Of a DNA stretch of 64,000 bases, positions 43,702-57,139 are shown one piece after another. The first letter of the stretch is position 1. The number at the start of each line of letters is the position of its first letter. Where the stretch lies: contig JADFIG010000014.1 of the NCBI GenBank assembly GCA_022566735.1, positions 1 through 64,000 of the forward strand, written 5' to 3'. A program made the position numbers and the translations under genes. Under the pieces are notes generated by a model. The model was not told where the DNA came from, made no database searches, and saw nothing but the letters and a program-made list of their open reading frames with translations. This stretch comes from Pseudomonadota bacterium. Its GTDB lineage: Bacteria > Pseudomonadota > Gammaproteobacteria > Burkholderiales > Burkholderiaceae_C.

Positions 43702-44175
43702 TCAGGGCTTGTTGCCCGTCGGGAAGGGCCAGGCAGCCTGGGGGCTCAGCGTGGTCTTCGCAGCGGGAGCAGCCTTTTTCGCAGGGGCAGGCTTGGCGGC
43801 GGGCTTCTTGGCTGCGGCCTTCTTGGCAGCAGGCTTGGCAGCAGGCTTCTTGGCCACGGCCGCCTTCTTCGGGGCGGCCTTCTTGACGGCAGCAGCCTTC
43901 TTGGCGGGTGCAGCCTTCTTCACGGCAACCTTCTTCACCGCGACCTTCTTGGCCGGTGCGGCCTTCTTCACCGCGGCCTTCTTGGCGGGTGCAGCCTTCT
44001 TCACGGCGGCCTTCTTGGCGGGCGCAGCCTTCTTGACGGCAGCCTTCTTGGCCGGAGCGGCCTTCTTCACAGCGACCTTCTTGGCGGGCGCAGCCTTCTT
44101 GACGGCGGCCTTCTTGGCGGGTGCAGCCTTCTTCACGGCGACCTTCTTGGGTGCCACTTTCTTCGCAGTTGCCAT
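43702..44175 (-). CDS. Alanine/lysine-rich histone H1-like DNA-binding protein
   Basis: This 157-residue protein is made of repeated AAPAKKA and VKK units up to about residue 140, then a short non-repeat tail (TLSPQAAWPFPTGNKP). It is like the C-terminal tails of eukaryotic H1 and of bacterial H1-like proteins (AlgP/HctB type). It should bind DNA without sequence preference and condense it. AAGGAG before ATG 44175 fixes the start. The repeat DNA can expand or contract. It is next to nrdB, a common order in Burkholderiales. A perfect stem TGTGCTGCA/TGCAGCACA lies in the upstream gap at 44208-44228. Confidence 0.9.
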   Translation of the reverse strand: MATAKKVAPKKVAVKKAAPAKKAAVKKAAPAKKVAVKKAAPAKKAAVKKAAPAKKAAVKKAAPAKKAAVKKAAPAKKVAVKKVAVKKAAPAKKAAAVKKAAPKKAAVAKKPAAKPAAKKAAAKKPAAKPAPAKKAAPAAKTTLSPQAAWPFPTGNKP

Positions 44176-44336
44176 ACGTTTCTCCTTGATCAAGTTGCAA
44201 AGAGCGCTGTGCTGCAGCATGCAGCACAGGCATCCACCACCCGACGCCCCCTAGGATCTGGACGCGGTGTGGTGAATGGGGTGGGCCGGAGGGGCATGTC
44301 CTGCAATCCCGTCTGCTCTTTGTGGCCGATCAAGGA

Positions 44337-45542
44337 TCAATCCCAGGACAGGGCACCGCCCGACTGGTATTCAATGACGCGGGTTTCGAAGAAGTTGCGT
44401 TCCTTCTTCAGGTCAATCATTTCGCTCATCCAGGGGAAGGGGTTCTCTTCGTTGGGGAAGAGCTCGTCCAGTCCGATCTGGGTGGCGCGGCGGTTGGCGA
44501 TGTAGCGCAGATAGCCCTTGAACATCGAGGCGTTCAGGCCCAGCACGCCACGGGGCATGGTGTCTTCAGCGTAGCGGTACTCCAGCTCGACCGCTTTGAG
44601 GAACAGCGCCTTGATTTCGGCCTTGAACTCGGCCGTCCACAGGTGCGGGTTCTCCAGCTTGAGCTGGTTGATGAGGTCGATGCCGAAGTTGCAGTGCATC
44701 GACTCGTCGCGCAGGATGTACTGGTACTGCTCGGCCGCACCGGTCATCTTGTTCTGGCGGCCCAGCGCGAGGATCTGGGTGAAGCCGACGTAGAAGAACA
44801 GGCCTTCCATCAGGCAGGCGAAGACGATCAGCGACTTCAGCAGCGTCTGGTCGTTCTCTTGCGTGCCGGTCTTGAAGTTCGGATCCATGATCGCCTCGAT
44901 GAAGGGGATCAGGAACTCGTCCTTGTCGCGGATGGACTGGACCTCGTGGTAGGCGTTGAAGATCTCGGACTCGTCCAGGCCCAGGCTCTCAACGATGTAT
45001 TGATAGGCGTGGGTGTGGATGGCTTCTTCAAAGGCCTGGCGCAGCAGGAACTGGCGGCACTCGGGCGCCGTGATGTGGCGGTAGGTGCCCAGGGTGATGT
45101 TGTTGGCGGCCAGCGAGTCGGCGGTCACGAAGAAGCCGAGGTTGCGCTTGATGATGCGGCGCTCGTCTTCGCTCAGGCCATTGGGATCCTTCCAGAGGGC
45201 GATGTCGCGAGACATGTTGACCTCTTGGGGCATCCAGTGGTTGGCGCAGGTGGCGAGGTACTTTTCCCAGGCCCACTTGTACTTGAAGGGGACGAGCTGG
45301 TTGACGTCGGTCTGGCCGTTGATGATGCGCTTGTCGGCGACGTTGACGCGGCGGGCTGCGCCACTGCTCGCATTGGCCGGCGAGCTGGAAGAGGCCGATG
45401 GAGGCAGGCCTTGGGCCGCGCCGGTGCTCATCTGTTCAGCGATGGGTGACGACGGCGTGTTCCGTGCTGCGCTGTTGGCGTTGTGCACGGAAGCAGGAGG
45501 CGTTGAAGAGGAGTTGGACGAGTCGTCTTCCCAGACCAGCAT
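44337..45542 (-). CDS. nrdB: Class Ia ribonucleotide reductase, beta subunit
   Basis: This 401-residue protein has a serine/alanine-rich N-terminal extension (about 1-65), common in Burkholderiales. The di-iron ligands can be placed at Asp in [10 protein letters not shown], Glu and His in [12 protein letters not shown] (with the radical Tyr in the same segment), Glu in LMEGLFFY, and Glu/His in [11 protein letters not shown]. With NrdA it makes dNDPs. The gene is about 6.2 kb downstream of nrdA because of an inserted element. A weak promoter (TTGGTG, 18 bases, CATAAT) lies just before the start. No NrdR box is seen there. Confidence 0.95.
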
Positions 45543-46045
45543 GGTGAACTTCCTATGGAGTCGGATTATGGAAGGGTGTTGTTAAAAACACCAAGCACTT
45601 CTTGACATGGAGAGCCCTTGGTTGTTGCGATGGCGCATCGAATGAAGCGTGAAGGACCGCACTGCGTCGGTCCTTGCTGCATCGCATCGCCACACATGCC
45701 ATCGCCTTGAAAGGCCGATGGCATGCGGGTTTCGGGCTCATGGCCTGCTTGCGGGCCATGTCGGCCGTGTCACTGACAGATAAGTGAAGCTGAGACCTTG
45801 GTGATTTTGGCTTGCGTAGTCATAGATTCTCTCGCTTTCGTATGAGGTTTGGGTCGATGAACAAAGGACGTCCGTAAGTTTGTCGATAACGAGCGCAGTA
45901 AGCGCGCTTACGGACGAAGTGGGTTGGGAGATGGTCCGAGGTTGGCAGCAACGCTCGTTCCGATGAGGGTTTGCTCGAGGCAGGCTGGCGTCGGCGCGGC
46001 GTGCCTTCATTGGGCGCTCGAACGCGAAGAACAGATTGAGCAAGG
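45543..46045. other. Structured intergenic region between the recombinase element and nrdB
   Basis: This 500-base stretch has no convincing gene. It contains several stem-loops: AAGGACCG/CGGTCCTT (45652-45675), a long stem starting TGCCATCG near 45700, and the nested palindrome at 45869-45916. A candidate -10 for nrdB (CATAAT, minus strand, 45565-45570) is at its left end. A 103-codon open frame starts inside the stop of the fourth element gene but has a poorly spaced ribosome site and no recognisable motif. Part of the stretch must be the original nrdA-nrdB gap, and part the end of the element. The junction was not found. Confidence 0.55.
45869..45916. repeat. Nested inverted repeat near the element's left end
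   Basis: CGTCCGTAAG (45869-45878) pairs with CTTACGGACG (45907-45916). Inside, GTAAGCGCGCTTAC (45898-45911) is a perfect 14-base palindrome sharing the right arm, and GGACGTCC (45866-45873) is another palindrome. The right arm can thus pair with two partners. The site lies about 130 bases beyond the last recombinase-operon gene and is a candidate binding or crossover region. Confidence 0.75.
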
Positions 46046-46456
46046 TCATTTCCTCCTCGCAATCTGCGGCAGCGGCGCGTCGAGGCGATCGATCGTCACG
46101 TTGTGAAGCATGGCGTTGTAGCGCCAGCGGTCGAACTTGTCGCGGTACTCGTCGACCAGCTTCTTGAGCGCGCTGATCTCGGCGTCGCGCGCGGCGAGCA
46201 TGCGCGAGGCGTCGGCCAAGCTGCCAGGGCTGGGCATTTTGCCCTCTGGCTGCTGGGCGAGATTCTTCTTGCGCGCCGAGAAGGCGGCCTGGATGTCGGC
46301 GTGCGAGCTGAGGCCTGAGCGGCTCGGCAGGTAGCCCAAGACGGGCTTGGCCAGCTTACAGACGTCGTCCCACGCGATGGCGCCGCGGTCCCAGGTGTGG
46401 ATCGCGTTGACGATGGTCACCACCTGCTCTGGCTTGATGTGTCGGTTGCGAGCCAT
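46046..46456 (-). CDS. Small helical recombination helper (GinD/TnpC-like)
   Basis: This 136-residue protein starts MARNRHIKPEQVVTIVNAIH. The first half looks like a helical DNA-binding domain. The second half has a coiled-coil stretch (about 90-118, SRMLAARDAEISALKKLVDE) and a basic end (PQIARRK). Tn554 TnpC has similar size and helix layout; the small fourth protein of GInt operons is the closest match in context. The start codon shares one base with the stop of the 728-residue recombinase gene (TGATG), so translation is coupled. The DNA-binding role is inferred. Confidence 0.7.
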   Translation of the reverse strand: MARNRHIKPEQVVTIVNAIHTWDRGAIAWDDVCKLAKPVLGYLPSRSGLSSHADIQAAFSARKKNLAQQPEGKMPSPGSLADASRMLAARDAEISALKKLVDEYRDKFDRWRYNAMLHNVTIDRLDAPLPQIARRK

Positions 46457-48642
46457 CAGTTCGCTCCCTCACTTGCACCAAGCAGAGGAAGACCTCTCGA
46501 TTTGGCCAGGCCGGCTTCGAGGGAGTTGAGCAGCTGCTCCATCGCGGCTCCCGAGCCGGCGCCGAGCTCCAAGGCCTTCGTGGCCAAGCCGCGCAGCGCG
46601 CGGTGGACGTGCGTCGGGTTTTCACCTTGAGCGGTACGAATTACCGATCCGTCGGGCACCGAGTCGCTCTGAAGCAGCGAGATCAGCTCTTCAAGTTTGG
46701 CGAGGTAACGCTTCTGAACCTCGAGCCAGTCCATGGCATCGACGTCGTCAGCAGATATCACCTCGGCCTTGGCGACTTCCATGACCACGTTGGCGTGGAG
46801 GGCACGCAGGCGCTCAAGCTTCTCGTCGGCGTCCTGGTCGCCCTTGATGCAGGCGTGCTCGCTGCAGTCCAGGCACTTGACGAAGCCTTCACACGGCGCG
46901 AACGCCCAGTCATGGTGGCACTCGCCGTACAGCGTTTTGAGGCCCGAGAGCTGCGGCTGGACCTCGTCGATATCGACCAGGTTGCGCGGCCGGGGCAGGA
47001 CGTTCACGACCCACTGACCCATGACGTAGCTCTCGCCCTCGGTGGGCAAGGCCACAGCCGACTGGATCGCCTCGACCACTTCACGAGTCTGTTCCACGCG
47101 CTCCTGAGCGGTGCGATGGTCGTAGACCTCGTTCTGGTCGACGCGCCGGCGGCCGGACCAGTGAGCGATCTGCTCGTCCGTGAGGCCCACGCGCTGGGCT
47201 TCCGTGTTGATCAGGTGGCGGATCTGGTGGGAGGTCAGCTTCAACGGCTGGCCTTGCTCGTCCTCGTAGCCGTAGCGCTCGAAGATGCTGGTCTTGGTCC
47301 GGCCGCCCGAGAGTTCGAAGTTGAGGTCGGCGAGATCCGGCATCCAGAGCATCACCGGGCTTGTGGCACCACGGGAGTTGAGCTGGTGGCGTAGCATGCA
47401 AAACAGCGCGTCGCTGAACTTCAGCCCACCCTTTTGGCCAAGCGCCTTGTCGGCCGCGCTGACATATGGGAAGTGGGGATGAAGAGCCTTGTACCGGGGG
47501 AGCAAGAAGGTGTCCCAGAGCGTCTGCAGGGTGTAGGCCCCGTCATCGCGGCTCAGCCCCAGATCGATCAAGGTGGCGGCGTAGTTCTTGTTGGTATAGC
47601 CCAGGGCCTGGCAAACCAGTTGCTTCCCCAGCGGCTGATCGTCCGCAACCTCCGGACAGTTTGCGTGGCGGTAGAAGCGATGCTTGGTCTGAGGGTCCTC
47701 CAGATGGCGGGCGAGCTTTCGGGCGTCTTGGGTGATGGCGCGAACGCGCTCGATGGCCTGTTCGGCGACCGGAACCATGCTCGACCACACCCACTTTACG
47801 TAGGCGCCAAAGCCTTTGGACGCATGCAATCGGAGGCCCATCTGCTCCTTGCCGAACTTGTCGGTGGCCTCGAAGACCAGGTTCTCCGGCAGGCGGAAGA
47901 TCTCCTGGCCGCGCGACGGGGCGCACATGAGCAAGGCCGTCACGCTTGTCGTGACGATGTCCTTGTGGGCCCGCTTGTCCGTCGGATCGAGATCACGGTT
48001 GAAGATCTCGGCCAGCGCGTAGAGCGCCCTGTGGTCCGGGAGCTTTTGCTCCCTGGCGCGGTCCGTCTCGCCATCGACGGAGATGTTGCGGTTCTTGGGC
48101 TGCTTGTTCGGATTGACCCATGTGCCGCAGATCGGCGGGAGGATGCCGGCGCGCACCAGGACGTCGGCGAGTCGCTGTAACTCGGCGCCCACGCGGTGCG
48201 CTCCGCCAGTTGCCAAATGCGTACGAGCAAGGCTCGCGGCCGCGTCAAGTGTTCCGCCGTCGATGCTCAGCGGGCTGGCGTCGCCTCGTAGAGACAAGAG
48301 TCCGGCCTCAAGGAACCGCACTGCCTGGAGGCGCTTGATATGTCCAAATTGACTCTGAGCGGGATTCACCAGATAGCGCTCGACGACGTAGGCTTTCGCA
48401 AAGTCGATGAAGGACTCGTCGAGCCAGGCCTGGAGAGGAATCGAAGCAGCTAGGCTGCCTCGCGGAGCATGCTCTTGCTTCACAAAGTAGCCCACGCCGG
48501 CCCAGTACGGCGCCGCCCAGTCTCCGGTGAGGACCTTGGACTCGGCCTTACCTCTCCGGATGTAGTTGGACAGATTCGATGCGCGAGTCAGGTCGTCCTG
48601 GGAGATCAGGGTTTCGACGGTGGTGCCTACGGGAGGCTTCAT
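46456..48642 (-). CDS. Large tyrosine recombinase (GinC/TnpB-like)
   Basis: This 728-residue protein has a helical N-terminal region (about 1-230) and a catalytic domain. The active-site residues can be read as Arg in CAPSRGQEIFRLP (near 245), the HxxR in LTSHQIRHLINTEAQ (near 480), His/Trp in IAHWSGRRR (near 503) and Tyr in NEVYDHRT (near 517). A Cys/His-rich segment (HHDWAFAPCEGFVKCLDCSE) near 580-600 may bind zinc. A long helical C-terminal tail follows. Its size is roughly twice that of phage integrases. It works with the two other recombinases of the operon. Confidence 0.82.
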   Translation of the reverse strand: MKPPVGTTVETLISQDDLTRASNLSNYIRRGKAESKVLTGDWAAPYWAGVGYFVKQEHAPRGSLAASIPLQAWLDESFIDFAKAYVVERYLVNPAQSQFGHIKRLQAVRFLEAGLLSLRGDASPLSIDGGTLDAAASLARTHLATGGAHRVGAELQRLADVLVRAGILPPICGTWVNPNKQPKNRNISVDGETDRAREQKLPDHRALYALAEIFNRDLDPTDKRAHKDIVTTSVTALLMCAPSRGQEIFRLPENLVFEATDKFGKEQMGLRLHASKGFGAYVKWVWSSMVPVAEQAIERVRAITQDARKLARHLEDPQTKHRFYRHANCPEVADDQPLGKQLVCQALGYTNKNYAATLIDLGLSRDDGAYTLQTLWDTFLLPRYKALHPHFPYVSAADKALGQKGGLKFSDALFCMLRHQLNSRGATSPVMLWMPDLADLNFELSGGRTKTSIFERYGYEDEQGQPLKLTSHQIRHLINTEAQRVGLTDEQIAHWSGRRRVDQNEVYDHRTAQERVEQTREVVEAIQSAVALPTEGESYVMGQWVVNVLPRPRNLVDIDEVQPQLSGLKTLYGECHHDWAFAPCEGFVKCLDCSEHACIKGDQDADEKLERLRALHANVVMEVAKAEVISADDVDAMDWLEVQKRYLAKLEELISLLQSDSVPDGSVIRTAQGENPTHVHRALRGLATKALELGAGSGAAMEQLLNSLEAGLAKSRGLPLLGASEGAN

Positions 48643-50339
48643 GCCTGACCTCCCTCAACTTCGGCGGACTCAAGCTCAGCGCGCCGGGCCTGGCATAACT
48701 GAACTACGTTCTGCACGGCGCCGATCAGTTTGTCGCGGCGCTTGGCCACCGGGCTATCGGTGCCCAGCTGCGCCGTCAGCGCCTCGCGCTCGGCCAGGAG
48801 CTCGCCGAGGAATTCTTCATGGGGGCCGTCCAGCCAGGGCTGGAAGTGGCTGCAGGTGTAGCACGCGTGCGGGATCCCGCCGTCGAGGCCGCACTGCTTC
48901 AGGTGGCCGCAGGTGGCGGTGCCTATTCCGCGATACGCGAGACGGCTTTGGGGATCGTTGCCGCCGACGGCCTCGGTCTCAGAGTTCACCAGATCGCCGC
49001 GGAAGGCCGAAGCGAAGCGCTGCAGCGTCGGTGACTTGGAGATGGCTCGGTCGATTTCAGCCGCGTGCTCCGGGAGGTTGTTGACGTAGAGCTCGGCCGA
49101 GCGAGAGGTCGAGTGGTCCAGTAGCCAGGCGATCAGGTGGGCAGGCAATCCCTCGCGGGCCAGGTCAGTGCCCTTGGAATGGCGTAGCCGGGCAGCCGAG
49201 ACATGCAGCGGCTCACCGTCGCGACCTATCGCACCGACCGAACTGCAAATCACGGTGATCCGACGAGCCTGGTTCGGCGCGGTTGCATGCCAAGCCCGCC
49301 CTGTGACATCGAGACGTAGGGCCTCTAGTGCCTTCCCGTGCTCGCCGCTCTTGCGCAACTCGGTGGCCAACTTCGTCGCTTCTATGATGGCTGACCACAT
49401 GGGGTACAAGGGCAACTCGCTCTGAAGTGCCTGAAGATCCCGTGGCTGAAGTTCCCAGCCCAATCGCTTCAACAATTCTGCGAACGTGGTTTGGACGTCA
49501 TCGCGCTGTGCACGGAAGACCTGGAAGTTAGCTGATGTCAGGTCGATAGCGCGCCTAGTCTCCCGGAAGGTGTGGCCTCTTTGCTTGGCTCGCGGGATAG
49601 CCAACATATATAGAAGCGGACCATCGGGATGCCCAGGCTCCGGGTCTCCACGCGTCTCGATGACGTCCTTGCACTTCATCGACGCGCTCTGCACGGGACG
49701 TCGACCGGTGCAGAGGTGCAAGTAGGCGAGGCTGAAGTCGTGCAGCGTCAGCTTTCCAGACTCGGCTGCATCGCTGAGTCCCTGAAGCAGATGGTGCGAC
49801 TCTTCTTGTGTGAGAGGTCCTTCGTGCGGATCCATTGTCCGCACGGCGCGACCAGGCTCGACTCCCTTAAGCCTCATCTCTTGCAAGTCAGCAACCAGCG
49901 AATTCGTGACGCCAGGGTGTCCGCCGCGGTGCCAAAGAACTAGGAATGACCTTAGGTGTCGCAGATAGTCCTCGTGCCCAAACTCTGCGAGCAAAGCCGT
50001 ACGGTACCGTTTGAAGTCGGCGATTTCCCAGGAAGCGATGAGCGTCGAAGGGAAGAATGACTTGTGGAAGTGTTTTAAAGCAATGCGATGTTGCGCAACG
50101 GTCGACCATGAGTATTTGGTGCAGGCATCTCGTAGAGTCGCTTCAAGGCTAGGCAGCAAGGCTGGTGACATCAGCGCGCGGAGAGAGTCGACTTCAAGGC
50201 CTTGGTTTTCAGTGATAGGCCACCAACCCGCCCGGCTGTCGAACTCGATGCCATCACGCGTGCGCACGGTGAAGCAGGCAAACTTATCCGACCCAGTTCC
50301 GCTGAGATCAATGACATCGTTGGGCGAGTTGGTGCTCAT
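48639..50339 (-). CDS. Tyrosine recombinase, middle gene (GinB-like), atypical active site
   Basis: This is a 566-residue protein. Box I arginine is in LCTGRRPVQSASM (near 210). The second box reads HVSAARLRHSKGTDLA: the arginine is kept, but the usual histidine three residues before it is alanine. The later His is in WLLDHSTSRS and the Tyr in AELYVNN. A four-cysteine region follows (ATCGHLKQC and ACYTCSH), likely a zinc ribbon, then a coiled-coil C-terminus. Overlaps of four bases (ATGA) join it to both neighbours. The changed residue may lower catalysis or make the protein a structural partner. Confidence 0.82.
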   Translation of the reverse strand: MSTNSPNDVIDLSGTGSDKFACFTVRTRDGIEFDSRAGWWPITENQGLEVDSLRALMSPALLPSLEATLRDACTKYSWSTVAQHRIALKHFHKSFFPSTLIASWEIADFKRYRTALLAEFGHEDYLRHLRSFLVLWHRGGHPGVTNSLVADLQEMRLKGVEPGRAVRTMDPHEGPLTQEESHHLLQGLSDAAESGKLTLHDFSLAYLHLCTGRRPVQSASMKCKDVIETRGDPEPGHPDGPLLYMLAIPRAKQRGHTFRETRRAIDLTSANFQVFRAQRDDVQTTFAELLKRLGWELQPRDLQALQSELPLYPMWSAIIEATKLATELRKSGEHGKALEALRLDVTGRAWHATAPNQARRITVICSSVGAIGRDGEPLHVSAARLRHSKGTDLAREGLPAHLIAWLLDHSTSRSAELYVNNLPEHAAEIDRAISKSPTLQRFASAFRGDLVNSETEAVGGNDPQSRLAYRGIGTATCGHLKQCGLDGGIPHACYTCSHFQPWLDGPHEEFLGELLAEREALTAQLGTDSPVAKRRDKLIGAVQNVVQLCQARRAELESAEVEGGQA

Positions 50340-51604
50340 GCCTCACCCCGGGGTTGAGCTTGGCGCGCAGCCATGCGATCTTGAAGCGCGAGCACCGTTG
50401 TACGGGCCAGACGCTTGGTCTCGAGTTCCGTGTACACAGCATCGACTTCGGAGTGCTGCTTGCGACCTGCGAGGTAGTTACGAACCCGCTTGTGGAGTTC
50501 TCTGCTGTTTTCGTCGTCGCCTTGCTCGTGCTGAAGCTTGGCCAGTTCATTGCTGAAGAAGTGGCGCAACAGGTGCGCGCGGATGTGCGAGATCCGCTCA
50601 TCGGCCTCAGCGAGCGTACCGAACACTTCCTTCAGGGCAGCCTTGGTCATCGGCTGGCCCTGGGTCGGTCCGGATTTGTGGGTGACGAAGAGGTAGCGAT
50701 GCTTGGTCGCACCAGGTATGGTACGACGCTGGCTCACGTACTGGACGAGGAGCTCTGTCAGGTAGACAGAGATCGGAATGGTGCGGCCTTCGGTTTTGAC
50801 CACAGGCTGGTCGACGCGAGGATCGTCGCTAGCGTCGTGACGCCGGCGAATGGTGATCTGACGCTTCACGTGGTCGATGTCGCGAACCTGAATGCTCAAT
50901 GCTTCCCCGCGGCGAATGCCGGTCTGGCGATGCAGCTCGACCAAGAGCAGGTTGCGAAGCTGCAACTCCGGGCTGAACGGATTGCGTTCAGAGCCGGGTG
51001 CGATGAGGTCATTGAGGATTTTGTTGTGACGCAGCGTGAACGGCTTGACATCAAAGTCGTCACGCGAAGGGGCGGAGCTGCCCCGGTGCCGAAGGATCTC
51101 TCGGCGCATCTCGGCGATACGAGTCATGCGCTCAGTGCTGACATGGGTCAGGAGGTACTTCGCCATCCATTCGACGAAGTCCGCGATGTGAGTCAGGCGC
51201 TTGAAGTGCGTCTGCCTGGCTACGGCTGGTATGGCATAGGCATAGCCGCGCCTTACCTTGCCAAGGGAGACGATCTTCTGATGTCTCTTGGCTTCCGCTC
51301 CAAAGCTCTGACGTGCGAAGTTGCTCAAGGCCTCACATTCCAAGAATGAAAGGTAGGTTCCCGCTTGGAGGCGGGCAGCCAGATCGATCTGATGGTGACG
51401 GCAAAAACCGCTCAGGACGTTGACAGCATTCAGAGCTGCCTCCTGAGAAGCCACGGACAGTCCCGGGTTGCGAATGGTCGAGACCACGAACAGGGAGGAG
51501 TAGTCGTCTTCCATACCGCTCTCACCAACTAAAAAAGAGCGCCGCTCCCCACCGGGGAGTAGCGCTCTGGATAGTTGGAATGGAAGTGACTGGCTTAGCG
51601 ACAT
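50336..51604 (-). CDS. Tyrosine recombinase, first gene (GinA-like)
   Basis: This 422-residue integrase has an N-terminal SAM-like DNA-binding part (about 20-160) with GERRSFLVGESG and LFVVSTIRN, a pattern known at the start of related integrases. This supports ATG 51604 over ATG 51514. The catalytic domain shows Arg in TGIRRGEALSIQ, a conserved lysine region in VVKTEGRTIPIS, HxxR in IRAHLLRHFFSNELA and Tyr in VDAVYTELETKR. It heads the four-gene operon. A terminator-shaped hairpin falls inside codons 13-25. Its stop overlaps the next start (ATGA). Confidence 0.85.
   Translation of the reverse strand: MSLSQSLPFQLSRALLPGGERRSFLVGESGMEDDYSSLFVVSTIRNPGLSVASQEAALNAVNVLSGFCRHHQIDLAARLQAGTYLSFLECEALSNFARQSFGAEAKRHQKIVSLGKVRRGYAYAIPAVARQTHFKRLTHIADFVEWMAKYLLTHVSTERMTRIAEMRREILRHRGSSAPSRDDFDVKPFTLRHNKILNDLIAPGSERNPFSPELQLRNLLLVELHRQTGIRRGEALSIQVRDIDHVKRQITIRRRHDASDDPRVDQPVVKTEGRTIPISVYLTELLVQYVSQRRTIPGATKHRYLFVTHKSGPTQGQPMTKAALKEVFGTLAEADERISHIRAHLLRHFFSNELAKLQHEQGDDENSRELHKRVRNYLAGRKQHSEVDAVYTELETKRLARTTVLALQDRMAARQAQPRGEA
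51531..51568 (-). terminator. Terminator-shaped hairpin inside the first recombinase gene
   Basis: On the minus strand AGAGCGC-TA-CTCCCC pairs with GGGGAG-CG-GCGCTCT around GGT, and TTTTTT follows directly. The stem has 13 pairs and one 2x2 mismatch. It lies in the first 75 bases of the recombinase coding region and about 160 bases after the nrdA stop. It could end nrdA transcription, silence the recombinase operon, or both. Confidence 0.82.
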
Positions 51605-51682
51605 TTCGCAATTCTCTCAGATACTTCCAATTCCGCGATGTAAAAGACAATAGCTCTAGGAGCCTCTGGCCACCGTTTTTAT

Positions 51683-51717
51683 AGAGGAGGAATGCCAAGT
51701 TAAAGACATTCCCCTCT
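51683..51717. repeat. Inverted repeat between nrdA and the recombinase operon
   Basis: AGAGGAGGAATG (51683-51694) and CATTCCCCTCT (51707-51717) pair over 11 bases with one bulge around a 12-base loop. It begins ten bases after the nrdA stop. It has no T-run and could be a weak nrdA terminator or a recombinase-binding core at the right end of the element. Confidence 0.6.
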
Positions 51718-51726
51718 TAACTCTTG

Positions 51727-54663
<2,937 letters not shown>

Positions 54664-54764
54664 GGGGTTCCCTTCAGGGGGTAGAGGCTTGCGTGCCGGG
54701 CGCGAGGCGATGGCAAACCTGCTGAATGGAGGCATCCGCGGTGCGCGGGTGCCGACTGCTCCGG

Positions 54765-54780
54765 ACACTATATCTGGTGT
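54765..54780 (-). promoter_or_regulatory. NrdR box 1 of nrdA
   Basis: ACACTATATCTGGTGT (plus strand) fits the NrdR palindrome ACACTATATATTGTGT with few changes. It covers the -10 box of nrdA. It is spaced exactly 31 bases, start to start, from the second box, the typical three-turn spacing for NrdR. Confidence 0.85.
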
Positions 54781-54795
54781 TTGGGTGGCTGTGAA
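54767..54795 (-). promoter_or_regulatory. nrdA promoter
   Basis: On the minus strand TTCACA (54795-54790) and TATAGT (54772-54767) are spaced by 17 bases, a good sigma-70 promoter. The -10 lies within NrdR box 1, so NrdR binding should block RNA polymerase. The leader is roughly 95 bases. Confidence 0.7.
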
Positions 54796-54811
54796 GCACT
54801 ACCCGTAGTGT
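54796..54811 (-). promoter_or_regulatory. NrdR box 2 of nrdA
   Basis: GCACTACCCGTAGTGT (plus strand) is a second NrdR-type palindrome, directly upstream of the -35 box. The pair would let ATP/dATP-loaded NrdR bind cooperatively. Confidence 0.85.
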
Positions 54812-54882
54812 CTGGTCGCGACTATAGCGTCCTTTTCGTGGGCGGCGAGCGCGACCCGTCAAAAACTGGGGAAAGCGCTGAC

Positions 54883-55503
54883 TCAGCTGCTGGAATCCAA
54901 CAGCGAGGCAGGCGGGAAACGCTCGGCAGACCAGGCGGTGAGGCGCGCCAGCAGGGCCCAGTCGAAGGCGCGGCCGGGGTCCTGCTTGCGGCCTGGCGCG
55001 ATGTGTTCATGGCCCACGGCCTGGGCGATGGGCCAGGCCAGGGCCAGGTCGTGCAGCAACTGCGCCAGGGCCGTGTATTGCGCGGGCTCGAAAGGGGTGT
55101 GCTCCAGGCCTTCGAGCTCGATGCCGACGCTGTGGTCGTTGCAGTTGTCCCGTCCTTGCCAGTGGGAGCGCCCAGCGTGCCAGGCGCGGTCCAGCACCGA
55201 GACGAACTGCAGCAGCGCGCCATCGCGGCGGATCACGAAATGCGCCGACACCTCCGCGCCGCGGATGAGGTCGAAGTAAGGGTGGGCGTCCCAGTCCAGG
55301 GTGTTGGTGAACAGGCGCTCGATCTCGTCGCCGCCGTACTGGCCTGGGGGCAGGCTGATCGAGTGCACCACCGCCAGGTCGATGGCCACACCAGGGGGGC
55401 GCGGTCCGAAGTTGGGCGAGGGCAGCACCCGGGCCTGGCGGTGCCAGCCGCCCTGCCATGGGCTCTGCGGGTGGCGGGGCGAGGGGGTGGCGTCAATCGA
55501 CAT
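54883..55503 (-). CDS. ampD: 1,6-anhydro-N-acetylmuramyl-L-alanine amidase
   Basis: This 206-residue cytoplasmic zinc amidase of the peptidoglycan recycling pathway cuts the bond between anhydro-muramic acid and the peptide. Zinc ligands fit His in VVHSISLPPGQYGG, His in VGHEHIAPGRK and Asp in KQDPG. The FIRRDGALLQFV and DNCNDHSVGIELEG segments are also typical. No signal peptide is present, as expected. In other bacteria, loss of AmpD raises AmpC beta-lactamase. It overlaps the pilR end by 11 bases and may be co-transcribed with pilSR. Confidence 0.95.
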   Translation of the reverse strand: MSIDATPSPRHPQSPWQGGWHRQARVLPSPNFGPRPPGVAIDLAVVHSISLPPGQYGGDEIERLFTNTLDWDAHPYFDLIRGAEVSAHFVIRRDGALLQFVSVLDRAWHAGRSHWQGRDNCNDHSVGIELEGLEHTPFEPAQYTALAQLLHDLALAWPIAQAVGHEHIAPGRKQDPGRAFDWALLARLTAWSAERFPPASLLDSSS

Positions 55504-57139
55504 CGGCGTCGGGGTCGAAGCGCTCGCCCAGCAGCACGCCTTGCTCGGTCACCTGCACGCCCAGGCGGGCCATGCGGTAGCGCATCTGGCGCAGCGACAG
55601 GCCCAGGCTGGCGCCAGCCGCGGTGCGGTTGAGGCGGTGTTTTTCCAGCGCCTGCACGAGGATGTCGCGCTCGACCTCGTCGAGGTGGGAGACCAGGTCG
55701 CGCGGCAGCGGGGCGGCAGGCTGGGGGCGTTCGGTCTGCGCCGATGCCGGTGTGTCGGGGGCCGCGGTGGCGGCGACCAGCGGTGCATCGGTCGCGCCCA
55801 TGGTGTCCGCGGCAGCCTGGGCGCGCAGGGCGGGCAGGGTCGGCGGCGGGGCCGGCGCCACACCCAGGTCCTGGGGTTCCAGCCGGGCGTGGCCGCTGAG
55901 CGCCACGGCGCGGTGCAGCATGTTCTCCAGCTCGCGCACATTGCCCGCGAAACGCTGGCGCATCAGGGCGGCCAGGGCGTCGGTGCTCAGGCAGGGGGCG
56001 GGTTGCAGGCCGGACTCGTTGGCGATGCGCTCCAGGATGCGCTGGCACAGGATGGGCAAGTCCTCCAGACGCTCGCGCAGCGGCGGCAGCGTGATCTGGA
56101 TGACGTTGAGGCGGTAGTACAAGTCCTGGCGGAAGTGCTGGGCCGCGACCTCGGCCTGGAGGTCCTTGTGGGTGGCGCTGACGATGCGCACATCGACCGG
56201 CACTTCCTGGGTGGCGCCGACCGCGCGCACGCGGCGTTCCTGGATGGCGCGCAGCAGCTTGGACTGCATGGCCAGCGGCAGGTCGCCGATTTCATCGAGG
56301 AAGAGCGTGCCACCGTGGGCTGCCTGGAAGAAGCCCTCGCGGTCTTCCGATGCGCCAGTGAAGGCGCCCTTGCGGTAGCCGAAGAACTCGGCTTCGAGCA
56401 ACTGCTCCGGGATGGCGCCGCAGTTCACGGCGATGAAGGGCCCGCTGTGGCGGCTGCTGACGTCGTGGATGGCCCGCGCCACGAGTTCCTTGCCGGTGCC
56501 GGATTCGCCCCACACCAGCACCGGGGCCATGCTGCGGGCGACCTTGTCGATCAGCACGCGCACCTGCTGCATGGCCGGGCTGTGGCCGGCGAGCTTGACC
56601 AAGGCCGGCGGTGGCAGGTGCGCGGGCGGGGCGGCCTGGCGGGATGCGATCGGATGCGAGGCCGTCGCCCCGGCCGAGCGCGATGGGGTGGCTTGTGTCC
56701 CGGACGAGGTGGGCGGCGCCGGCTGCGGGGCGCCCGCCTCGTGCAGCATCAGGGCTTGCGACTCGGCGTCGCGCAGGGCCGAGGCCACCACGGCACGGAA
56801 CTGCTTGAGGTCCACCGGCTTGGTGAGGTAGTCGTAGGCGCCGGCCTTGAGCGCGCTGACGGCGTTCTCGGCCGAGCCGTACGCCGTGATCACGATGGCC
56901 TTTTCGGTGCGGCCGGCGGACTCCAGGCGCTGCAGCAGCTCCAGGCCGGTGCCATCGGGCAGGCGCATGTCCGTGATGAGCACGCTGTAGCTGTGCTCCT
57001 GCAGTTGCTGCCAGGCGTCTTCGACAGTGGCCGCGGTTTCGATTTCGTAGCCCTCGCGCAGCAGCGTCAGCTCGTAGAGCGTGCGCAGGTCGGGCTCGTC
57101 GTCGACGACCAGCAGTCGGTGGGAGGTGGGAGAGGTCAT
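55493..57139 (-). CDS. pilR: Sigma-54-dependent response regulator for type IV pili
   Basis: This is a 548-residue NtrC-family regulator. The REC domain (about 1-125) has the acceptor Asp in VLITDMRLPDGTG. The AAA+ domain (about 195-430) has Walker A VWGESGTGKELVARAIH, the sigma-54 contact loop GYRKGAFTGASEDR and the Walker B region GGTLFLDEIGDLPL. The C-terminal Fis-type HTH (about 485-535) is ALEKHRLNRTAAGASLGL. The linker before the HTH is long and proline/alanine-rich. PilR activates pilA from a -24/-12 promoter. The pilS gene lies immediately upstream and overlaps by four bases. Confidence 0.93.
   Translation of the reverse strand: MTSPTSHRLLVVDDEPDLRTLYELTLLREGYEIETAATVEDAWQQLQEHSYSVLITDMRLPDGTGLELLQRLESAGRTEKAIVITAYGSAENAVSALKAGAYDYLTKPVDLKQFRAVVASALRDAESQALMLHEAGAPQPAPPTSSGTQATPSRSAGATASHPIASRQAAPPAHLPPPALVKLAGHSPAMQQVRVLIDKVARSMAPVLVWGESGTGKELVARAIHDVSSRHSGPFIAVNCGAIPEQLLEAEFFGYRKGAFTGASEDREGFFQAAHGGTLFLDEIGDLPLAMQSKLLRAIQERRVRAVGATQEVPVDVRIVSATHKDLQAEVAAQHFRQDLYYRLNVIQITLPPLRERLEDLPILCQRILERIANESGLQPAPCLSTDALAALMRQRFAGNVRELENMLHRAVALSGHARLEPQDLGVAPAPPPTLPALRAQAAADTMGATDAPLVAATAAPDTPASAQTERPQPAAPLPRDLVSHLDEVERDILVQALEKHRLNRTAAGASLGLSLRQMRYRMARLGVQVTEQGVLLGERFDPDADVD

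Follow-up and report, generated by a model that had tools for sequence, protein, structure and literature searches.

A cargo-free GInt-like element at the 3' end of nrdA in a Burkholderiales genome

What separates nrdA from nrdB, which encode the enzyme making DNA building blocks, in a Pseudomonadota bacterium of the Burkholderiales (GenBank assembly GCA_022566735.1)? The window, meaning the whole analysed stretch of 64,000 nucleotides (contig JADFIG010000014.1, positions 1 to 64,000), carries between the two genes an insert of four overlapping open reading frames (ORFs). We consider the insert, with a probability of roughly 0.87, to be a GInt that lacks cargo and has the last codons of nrdA as its specific integration site. 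A GInt is a genomic island with three integrases, defined by the ginABCD operon (PMC5385486), and is also called a Tn6571-family transposon (PMC10121019). A preliminary description of the locus, made from the letters alone, had proposed an inserted, GInt-like and cargo-free element. This proposal is supported by empty sites in relatives, homology to gin genes, three further occupied loci and conflicting synonymous divergences.

The insert, its empty and occupied sites and its ends

The four minus-strand ORFs fill positions 46046-51604 between intact nrdA and nrdB, exactly where they were first described and with the same lengths, and overlap head to tail by 4, 4 and 1 bases in the order ginA to ginD. 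The main features, in window coordinates, are:

51727-54768, minus strand: nrdA, the target gene, intact (NCBIfam NrdA model, 1801 bits)
50336-51604, minus strand: ginA-like tyrosine recombinase, 422 aa (ORF and Pfam Phage_integrase match)
48639-50339, minus strand: ginB-like tyrosine recombinase, 566 aa (ORF and NCBIfam NF041502 match)
46456-48642, minus strand: large ginC-like protein with recombinase fold, 728 aa; its C-terminal part contains Cys
46046-46456, minus strand: ginD-like helical protein, 136 aa; residues 80-117 form a long helix at the C-terminus
44337-45542, minus strand: nrdB, intact (NCBIfam NrdB model, 700 bits)
~45768..51736, minus strand: whole element from attR to attL, 5969 bp (from empty relatives and three occupied loci)

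The element thus extends slightly past the interval first given (46046-51604), to ~45768-51736 (5.97 kb). Between ginD and attR, 267 bp apart in the window, there is no cargo. The placement inside an essential operon, as originally worded, holds with regard to gene order, while neither nrd gene is broken. This nrdA is the only full-length match in the source genome (assembly 89% complete), and nrdB is the single match there.

The expected adjacency of nrdA and nrdB was borne out in relatives. An NrdB search through 61 genomes gave matches in 55, from which 30 loci were taken, one of them the window itself. The nrdA-nrdB gap is below 0.4 kb in all 29 relatives (27 of the same genus and 2 of the same order), compared with 6.18 kb in the window. 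In 13 of these gaps, compared by reading with the flanks in the window, the left flank agrees up to the last nrdA codons and the right flank agrees again before nrdB, which helps to define the element ends. Close relatives lack the four genes at this site, which speaks against a fixed ancestral part of the locus.

The arrangement nrdA-ginABCD-nrdB was found intact at three other loci: L067 (Betaproteobacterium AAP99), L068 (Roseateles puraquae) and L069 (a metagenome-assembled genome from the genus of R. puraquae). Their Gin proteins are 67-82% identical to those of the window, their attachment (att) repeats lie 5868-5871 bp apart (a unit of ~5.88 kb), and attR follows ginD by 197 bp. The contig of L069 is titled Methylotenera, although its nrd genes are nearly identical to those of R. 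puraquae, and the title looks wrong for the content. Twenty genomes were searched in the genus of R. puraquae, with 19 matched and 17 assessable; 15 of the 17 nrd loci are empty and two are occupied (L156 and L159, identified by coordinates as L068 and L069). The single genus mate of Betaproteobacterium AAP99 among the genomes examined also has an empty nrd site (gap <0.4 kb). An ORF of 103 aa at 45738-46049 was considered as cargo and dropped; it crosses attR and is without counterpart in L067-L069.

Gin proteins are sparsely distributed in this part of the tree. Of 42 same-genus genomes, five gave GinC matches: the window itself and four others with 27-35% identity at locations elsewhere and with empty nrd gaps. 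In the order the count is 6 of 399 genomes, again including the window. For GinA, 5 of 399 family genomes matched at E-values up to 1e-40, among them the window and, by coordinates, L067, L068 and the Paucibacter locus L070. The source genome also holds a second, distant pair of recombinase-like genes near a contig end (L058:14610-17278, on contig G000:C51), and a ginA-like gene in another genome (G011, locus L055) has match values equal to those of that stretch.

Features at the element ends are as follows:

51725..51736, minus strand: attL, CTGCCAATAACA; overlaps the last nrdA codons and stop, with the NrdA C-terminus ...CEACQ kept
51684..51716, minus strand: hairpin immediately inward of attL, following the nrdA stop (RNA fold -20.3 kcal/mol, z -5.4)
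45869..45916, minus strand: hairpin close to the right end, with CGTCCGTAAG / CTTACGGACG as outer arms (fold z -4.3)
45770..45823, minus strand: putative 17-codon open frame ending at attR, MTTQAKITKVSASLICQ, read from the sequence
45768..45779, minus strand: attR, CTGTCAGTGACA; rightward of it, host DNA homologous to empty sites resumes

Empty and occupied sites concur in placing the crossover inside TGCCARTRA, formed by the last nrdA codons and stop. The empty site reads CTGCCAGTGACA in L011 and CTGCCAGTAAGT in several of the loci L152-L168 and L175. An initial candidate for attR, AAGCAGGCCA near 45740, was abandoned because the three occupied relatives break at TGYCARTRA. A long terminal inverted repeat was looked for in the window and not found. 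L067 carries a subterminal inverted match, GGAGTTGAGACC (15/20), reached by 1 of 60 shuffles, and it is the only one of the four elements with such a match above chance level.

The left hairpin may replace one that trails nrdA at empty sites. In shuffle tests, its counterpart has z -3.2 in L067 and z -1.4 in L068, the latter not significant. At the place corresponding to the right hairpin, L067 has z -3.7 (the test covered the window and L067). The hairpin arms differ between the window and L067 and yet still pair, a pattern that is suggestive at most in these few sequences. The 17-codon frame has counterparts of equal length in L067-L069 and, in three of the four elements (not L069), a CQ-stop ending like that of NrdA. 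As a general GInt device, such a frame was discarded; in the one other element examined, on the plasmid L177 presented below, no clear start could be recognised for the frame that closes at the ssb stop. An Rfam scan of 44000-56000 gave nothing at gathering scores. Just downstream of nrdB, at 43702-44220, lies a Lys/Ala-rich repeat protein with a composition that is histone H1-like by eye.

Predicted active sites of the Gin proteins

The preliminary description had counted three large recombinases. Family models confirm two of them: GinA matches Pfam Phage_integrase (60.9 bits) and GinB matches NCBIfam NF041502 'site-specific integrase' (386.5 bits, cut-off 350). GinC and GinD have no match above cut-off in NCBIfam, Pfam, PHROGs or PADLOC, and the recombinase character of GinC is supported by its predicted Cre-like fold. 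In the AlphaFold2 model of GinC (mean pLDDT 82.2, pTM 0.64), Cre structures are the top Foldseek hits (E-value 2.8e-5, TM-score 0.58 by target length and 0.29 by query length, root-mean-square deviation 7.5). GinD is predicted to be all helical (mean pLDDT 82.2), in line with the initial assignment, and its model has no match in PDB at E 0.001.

Candidate catalytic residues are R231, K270, H344, R347 and Y391 in GinA, and R214, K252, R386, H409 and Y418 in GinB, where the HxxR position is without His in all seven aligned rows. The corresponding set in GinC of the window comprises R244, K276, H472, R475, W495 and Y507. R244, E247, K276, R475 and Y507 are shared by all 48 aligned GinC sequences; H472 is kept in 47, as is W495. 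K276 occupies the turn between predicted strands 266-274 and 279-284. In tyrosine recombinases, the catalytic lysine sits in such a turn between two strands.

Papers on GInts describe GinC as catalytically incomplete. The conserved set suggests instead a resemblance to a tyrosine-recombinase active site. This assignment draws on conserved alignment columns, the context of the motifs and the Cre-like fold rather than on geometry: comparison with the GinA profile yielded no usable full alignment, with a weak match over the HxxRH stretch only, and the sequence search against PDB chains gave no match.

Mobility and rival explanations

Synonymous divergence (NG86 dS) was compared pairwise among the window, L067, L068 and L069. 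Between the window and L068 it is 0.43 for nrdA and 0.61 for nrdB, against 0.92-2.56 for the gin genes, while L067 and L068 differ by 0.89-0.98 in nrd and by 0.45-0.82 in gin genes. For L068 and L069 the values are 0.20-0.21 and 0.05-0.11, respectively. These values are hard to reconcile with a single vertical history in which every gene keeps a steady rate of its own, and the conflict between pairs points to more than one entry at the nrdA site. In the NrdB tree (49 rows), the window falls among its own genus, and L067 stands next to the genus mate that lacks the element. In the GinB tree (85 rows), the window, L067, L068 and L069 form one group (support 100), and the Paucibacter operon L070 lies outside it (support 99); L070 has no upstream nrdA match, and a RecD2-like helicase follows its operon.

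Taken as sequence comparison, the data indicate that the insert probably belongs to a self-mobile, cargo-free GInt lineage specific for the nrdA 3' end. In the proposed mechanism, GinA, GinB and GinC would act jointly as tyrosine recombinases with GinD as helper, and attL would join attR to give a circle that could enter another nrdA at its 3'-terminal TGCCARTRA. The element's left end rebuilds the last nrdA codons (CAA TAA), leaving NrdA unchanged, and nrdB retains the preceding stretch common to empty relatives; this probably explains how the locus tolerates an insertion between the nrd genes. Transcription from nrdA may account for part of the expression of the gin operon.

Several observations weigh against this interpretation. 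The known occupied loci are only four, two of them (L068 and L069) close kin. The pair of the window and L067 is without clear conflict in dS (nrd 0.88-0.92, gin 0.70-1.70), values above ~1 are saturated, and NG86 disregards codon bias. The att direct repeat of 12 nt has three mismatches (9/12) and is not significant alone, an equal match being reached in 23% of shuffles; given this weak repeat, the placement of attL and attR rests on the empty and occupied sites. Two terminator-like sites on the minus strand, at 51652-51664 and 51534-51550 (0.4 expected in 51500-51900), argue against simple read-through from nrdA into the gin operon, and a scan of both end regions for sigma-70-like promoters found none. 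In addition, gin identity was assigned through operons located at ssb genes, not through the Gin proteins of P. stutzeri DSM 4166, on which the experiments were done.

The preliminary description had left the choice between a remnant and a minimal self-moving unit. A decayed remnant, meaning a formerly larger GInt, stripped of its cargo in this strain and no longer mobile, would agree with the cargo-free stretch between ginD and attR, and with R381 of GinA, which stands in a column occupied by W in five and H in one of seven aligned rows. R381 is, however, common to L067-L069 and so does not represent fresh decay. The gin ORFs are open in all four loci, and non-synonymous divergence (dN) is far below dS. 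Because the intact cargo-free unit, with both ends, occurs at three other loci, a one-off remnant is disfavoured and a minimal self-moving unit fits better; we regard the remnant as improbable.

Domestication, with vertical inheritance of a recombinase operon that serves the host at the nrd locus, would account for one location in several Burkholderiales, the lack of cargo, purifying selection and the lack of a clear dS conflict for the pair of the window and L067. Nevertheless, the operon is missing at all 27 same-genus loci as well as at 15 of the 17 assessable loci in the R. puraquae genus, the divergences of gin and nrd disagree in three pairs, and the two trees group the window and L067 differently. 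Domestication is thus a very improbable account of an insert which we interpret as a probably mobile GInt.

A more far-reaching version of the GInt interpretation would describe a 5.9-kb cargo-free self-moving lineage between two essential genes, harmless by means of the rebuilt nrdA codons and a replacement hairpin, and equipped with three catalytically complete recombinases, GinC included, contrary to the published view. In this full form it is put forward tentatively, and we consider it less likely than not.

Gin operons elsewhere and known mobile elements

A plasmid search with GinB gave 80 matching records, all below 60% identity, and in all five records opened a gene for single-stranded DNA-binding protein (ssb) is annotated directly upstream. 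Three of these ssb-located operons, L064 (pKOX-86d), L065 (pPAD8) and L066 (pCuR), have the same gene order as the window and show 30-33% identity to it in GinA, 31-34% in GinB and 28-36% in GinC; GinD identity is 28-35% in two of the three plasmids. The proteins of the insert hence match the mobile gin family. Together with L171 (pTROUS1) and L177 (E. coli AR_0369), these operons resemble the window in gene order and in position at the stop codon of the target, and differ in the target (ssb) and, where annotated, in cargo after ginD, for example Avs4 or restriction-modification genes. A GinB scan of IMG/VR gave no match.

A GinB-motif scan of GTDB representatives produced 121 stretches, 107 of them confirmed and 80 kept. 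The gene within 900 bp upstream on the same strand is ssb in 52 of the kept loci, nrdA in three and dnaN in one (L106, Pfam-confirmed); 16 have none of the three, seven are too near a contig edge and one is without a ginA match. In the dnaN case, from Afipia massiliensis, the gin operon (L106:7441-8707) immediately follows dnaN. One Tepidimonas fonticaldi contig contains two gin operons (L092 and L093) with identical GinB, ~22 kb apart, and a BrxL gene is found just upstream of the second. The ssb-end motif precedes ginA in 47 loci. A second copy within 700 bp of ginD was found in none of the 45 ssb-type loci (of 52) with ginD and at least 700 bp after it, in a crude search that does not thereby prove cargo in the 45.

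Insertion at ssb can be followed on a pair of IncN plasmids, L176 empty and L177 occupied by ginABCD, avs4 and an AbiGi-family gene. Both flanks are shared and the break is at the ssb stop codon, so that comparison of the two sequences demonstrates an insertion of this more distant relative of the window element. The pair also gives the ends of the GInt-like island at L177:980-12881. Furthermore, an X. citri plasmid and a Stenotrophomonas chromosome carry operons of 99-100% identity; the ssb genes ahead of these operons match at 76%.

Among the open-access titles and abstract openings screened, none describes a cargo-free GInt or one between nrdA and nrdB. Already known are the GInt kind itself and the nrdA end as a target of other GInts, and, as far as could be seen, three points are new: cargo is naturally absent, this state recurs in several bacteria, and GinC has a conserved active site-like set. 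The working of the four-gene core is hardly known, and cargo has so far been described as part of the element, with GInts carrying defence, resistance and virulence genes (PMC5385486, PMC10121019). A natural core-only unit offers a small object for movement tests; its existence suggests that persistence and spread of the core need no benefit from cargo. Conservation of catalytic-type residues makes the role of GinC directly testable. The 3'-end targets, ssb, nrdA and in one case dnaN, hint that genes for DNA replication and precursor supply are preferred.

A Tn554-, RIT- or SE-type element is the least probable explanation: these are all multi-recombinase elements and L067 has its subterminal inverted match, but each departs from the window in gene content or order. 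'Tn554-like', as in the preliminary description, is loosely right with regard to multiple recombinases, site specificity and the reported resemblance of GinD to TnpC (PMC5385486), and fails in that Tn554 has three genes, tnpABC, and no GinC counterpart (PMC10214605), compared with four genes including a GinC homologue here. RIT elements share three consecutive tyrosine recombinases, and are described with proteins of 315-410 aa, no fourth gene and 34-bp terminal inverted repeats (PMC10214605); the window has proteins of 422, 566 and 728 aa, a fourth gene and no long terminal inverted repeat. Likewise site-specific, with a four-gene recombination core in the order intA-tfp-intB-srap, strand-biased circularizing integrative elements (SE) are reported solely from Gammaproteobacteria, and their authors separate them from GInts by sequence (PMC10214605). 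In the window, two recombinases come ahead of the large recombinase-fold protein, which is third, and the GmtY equivalog model of the gamma-mobile-trio scores 30.2 bits (cut-off 340).

With GInts, the window element shares the order and overlap of ginABCD and homology to ssb-located operons of GInt make-up. GInts are described with a tripartite structure in which 2.5-70 kb of cargo follows ginD (PMC5385486), and with a median size of 34.9 kb (n=20; PMC10214605), whereas here attR lies 0.27 kb past ginD. Their description also includes excision in circular form, for which all four gin genes are required. Site-specific insertion, often at gene 3' ends, and imperfect direct repeats of 10-17 nt (PMC5385486) have their counterparts in one site used at four loci and a 12-nt repeat, and horizontal movement is indicated indirectly by the dS conflict in three pairs and the patchy distribution. 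In the published survey ssb is a frequent site, and P. aeruginosa PA_D16 bears two cargo-carrying GInts at the end of an nrdA (PMC5385486). The closest functional parallel to a core-only unit is a synthetic minimal GInt with the vector as its only cargo, which integrated and excised in Pseudomonas (PMC5385486).

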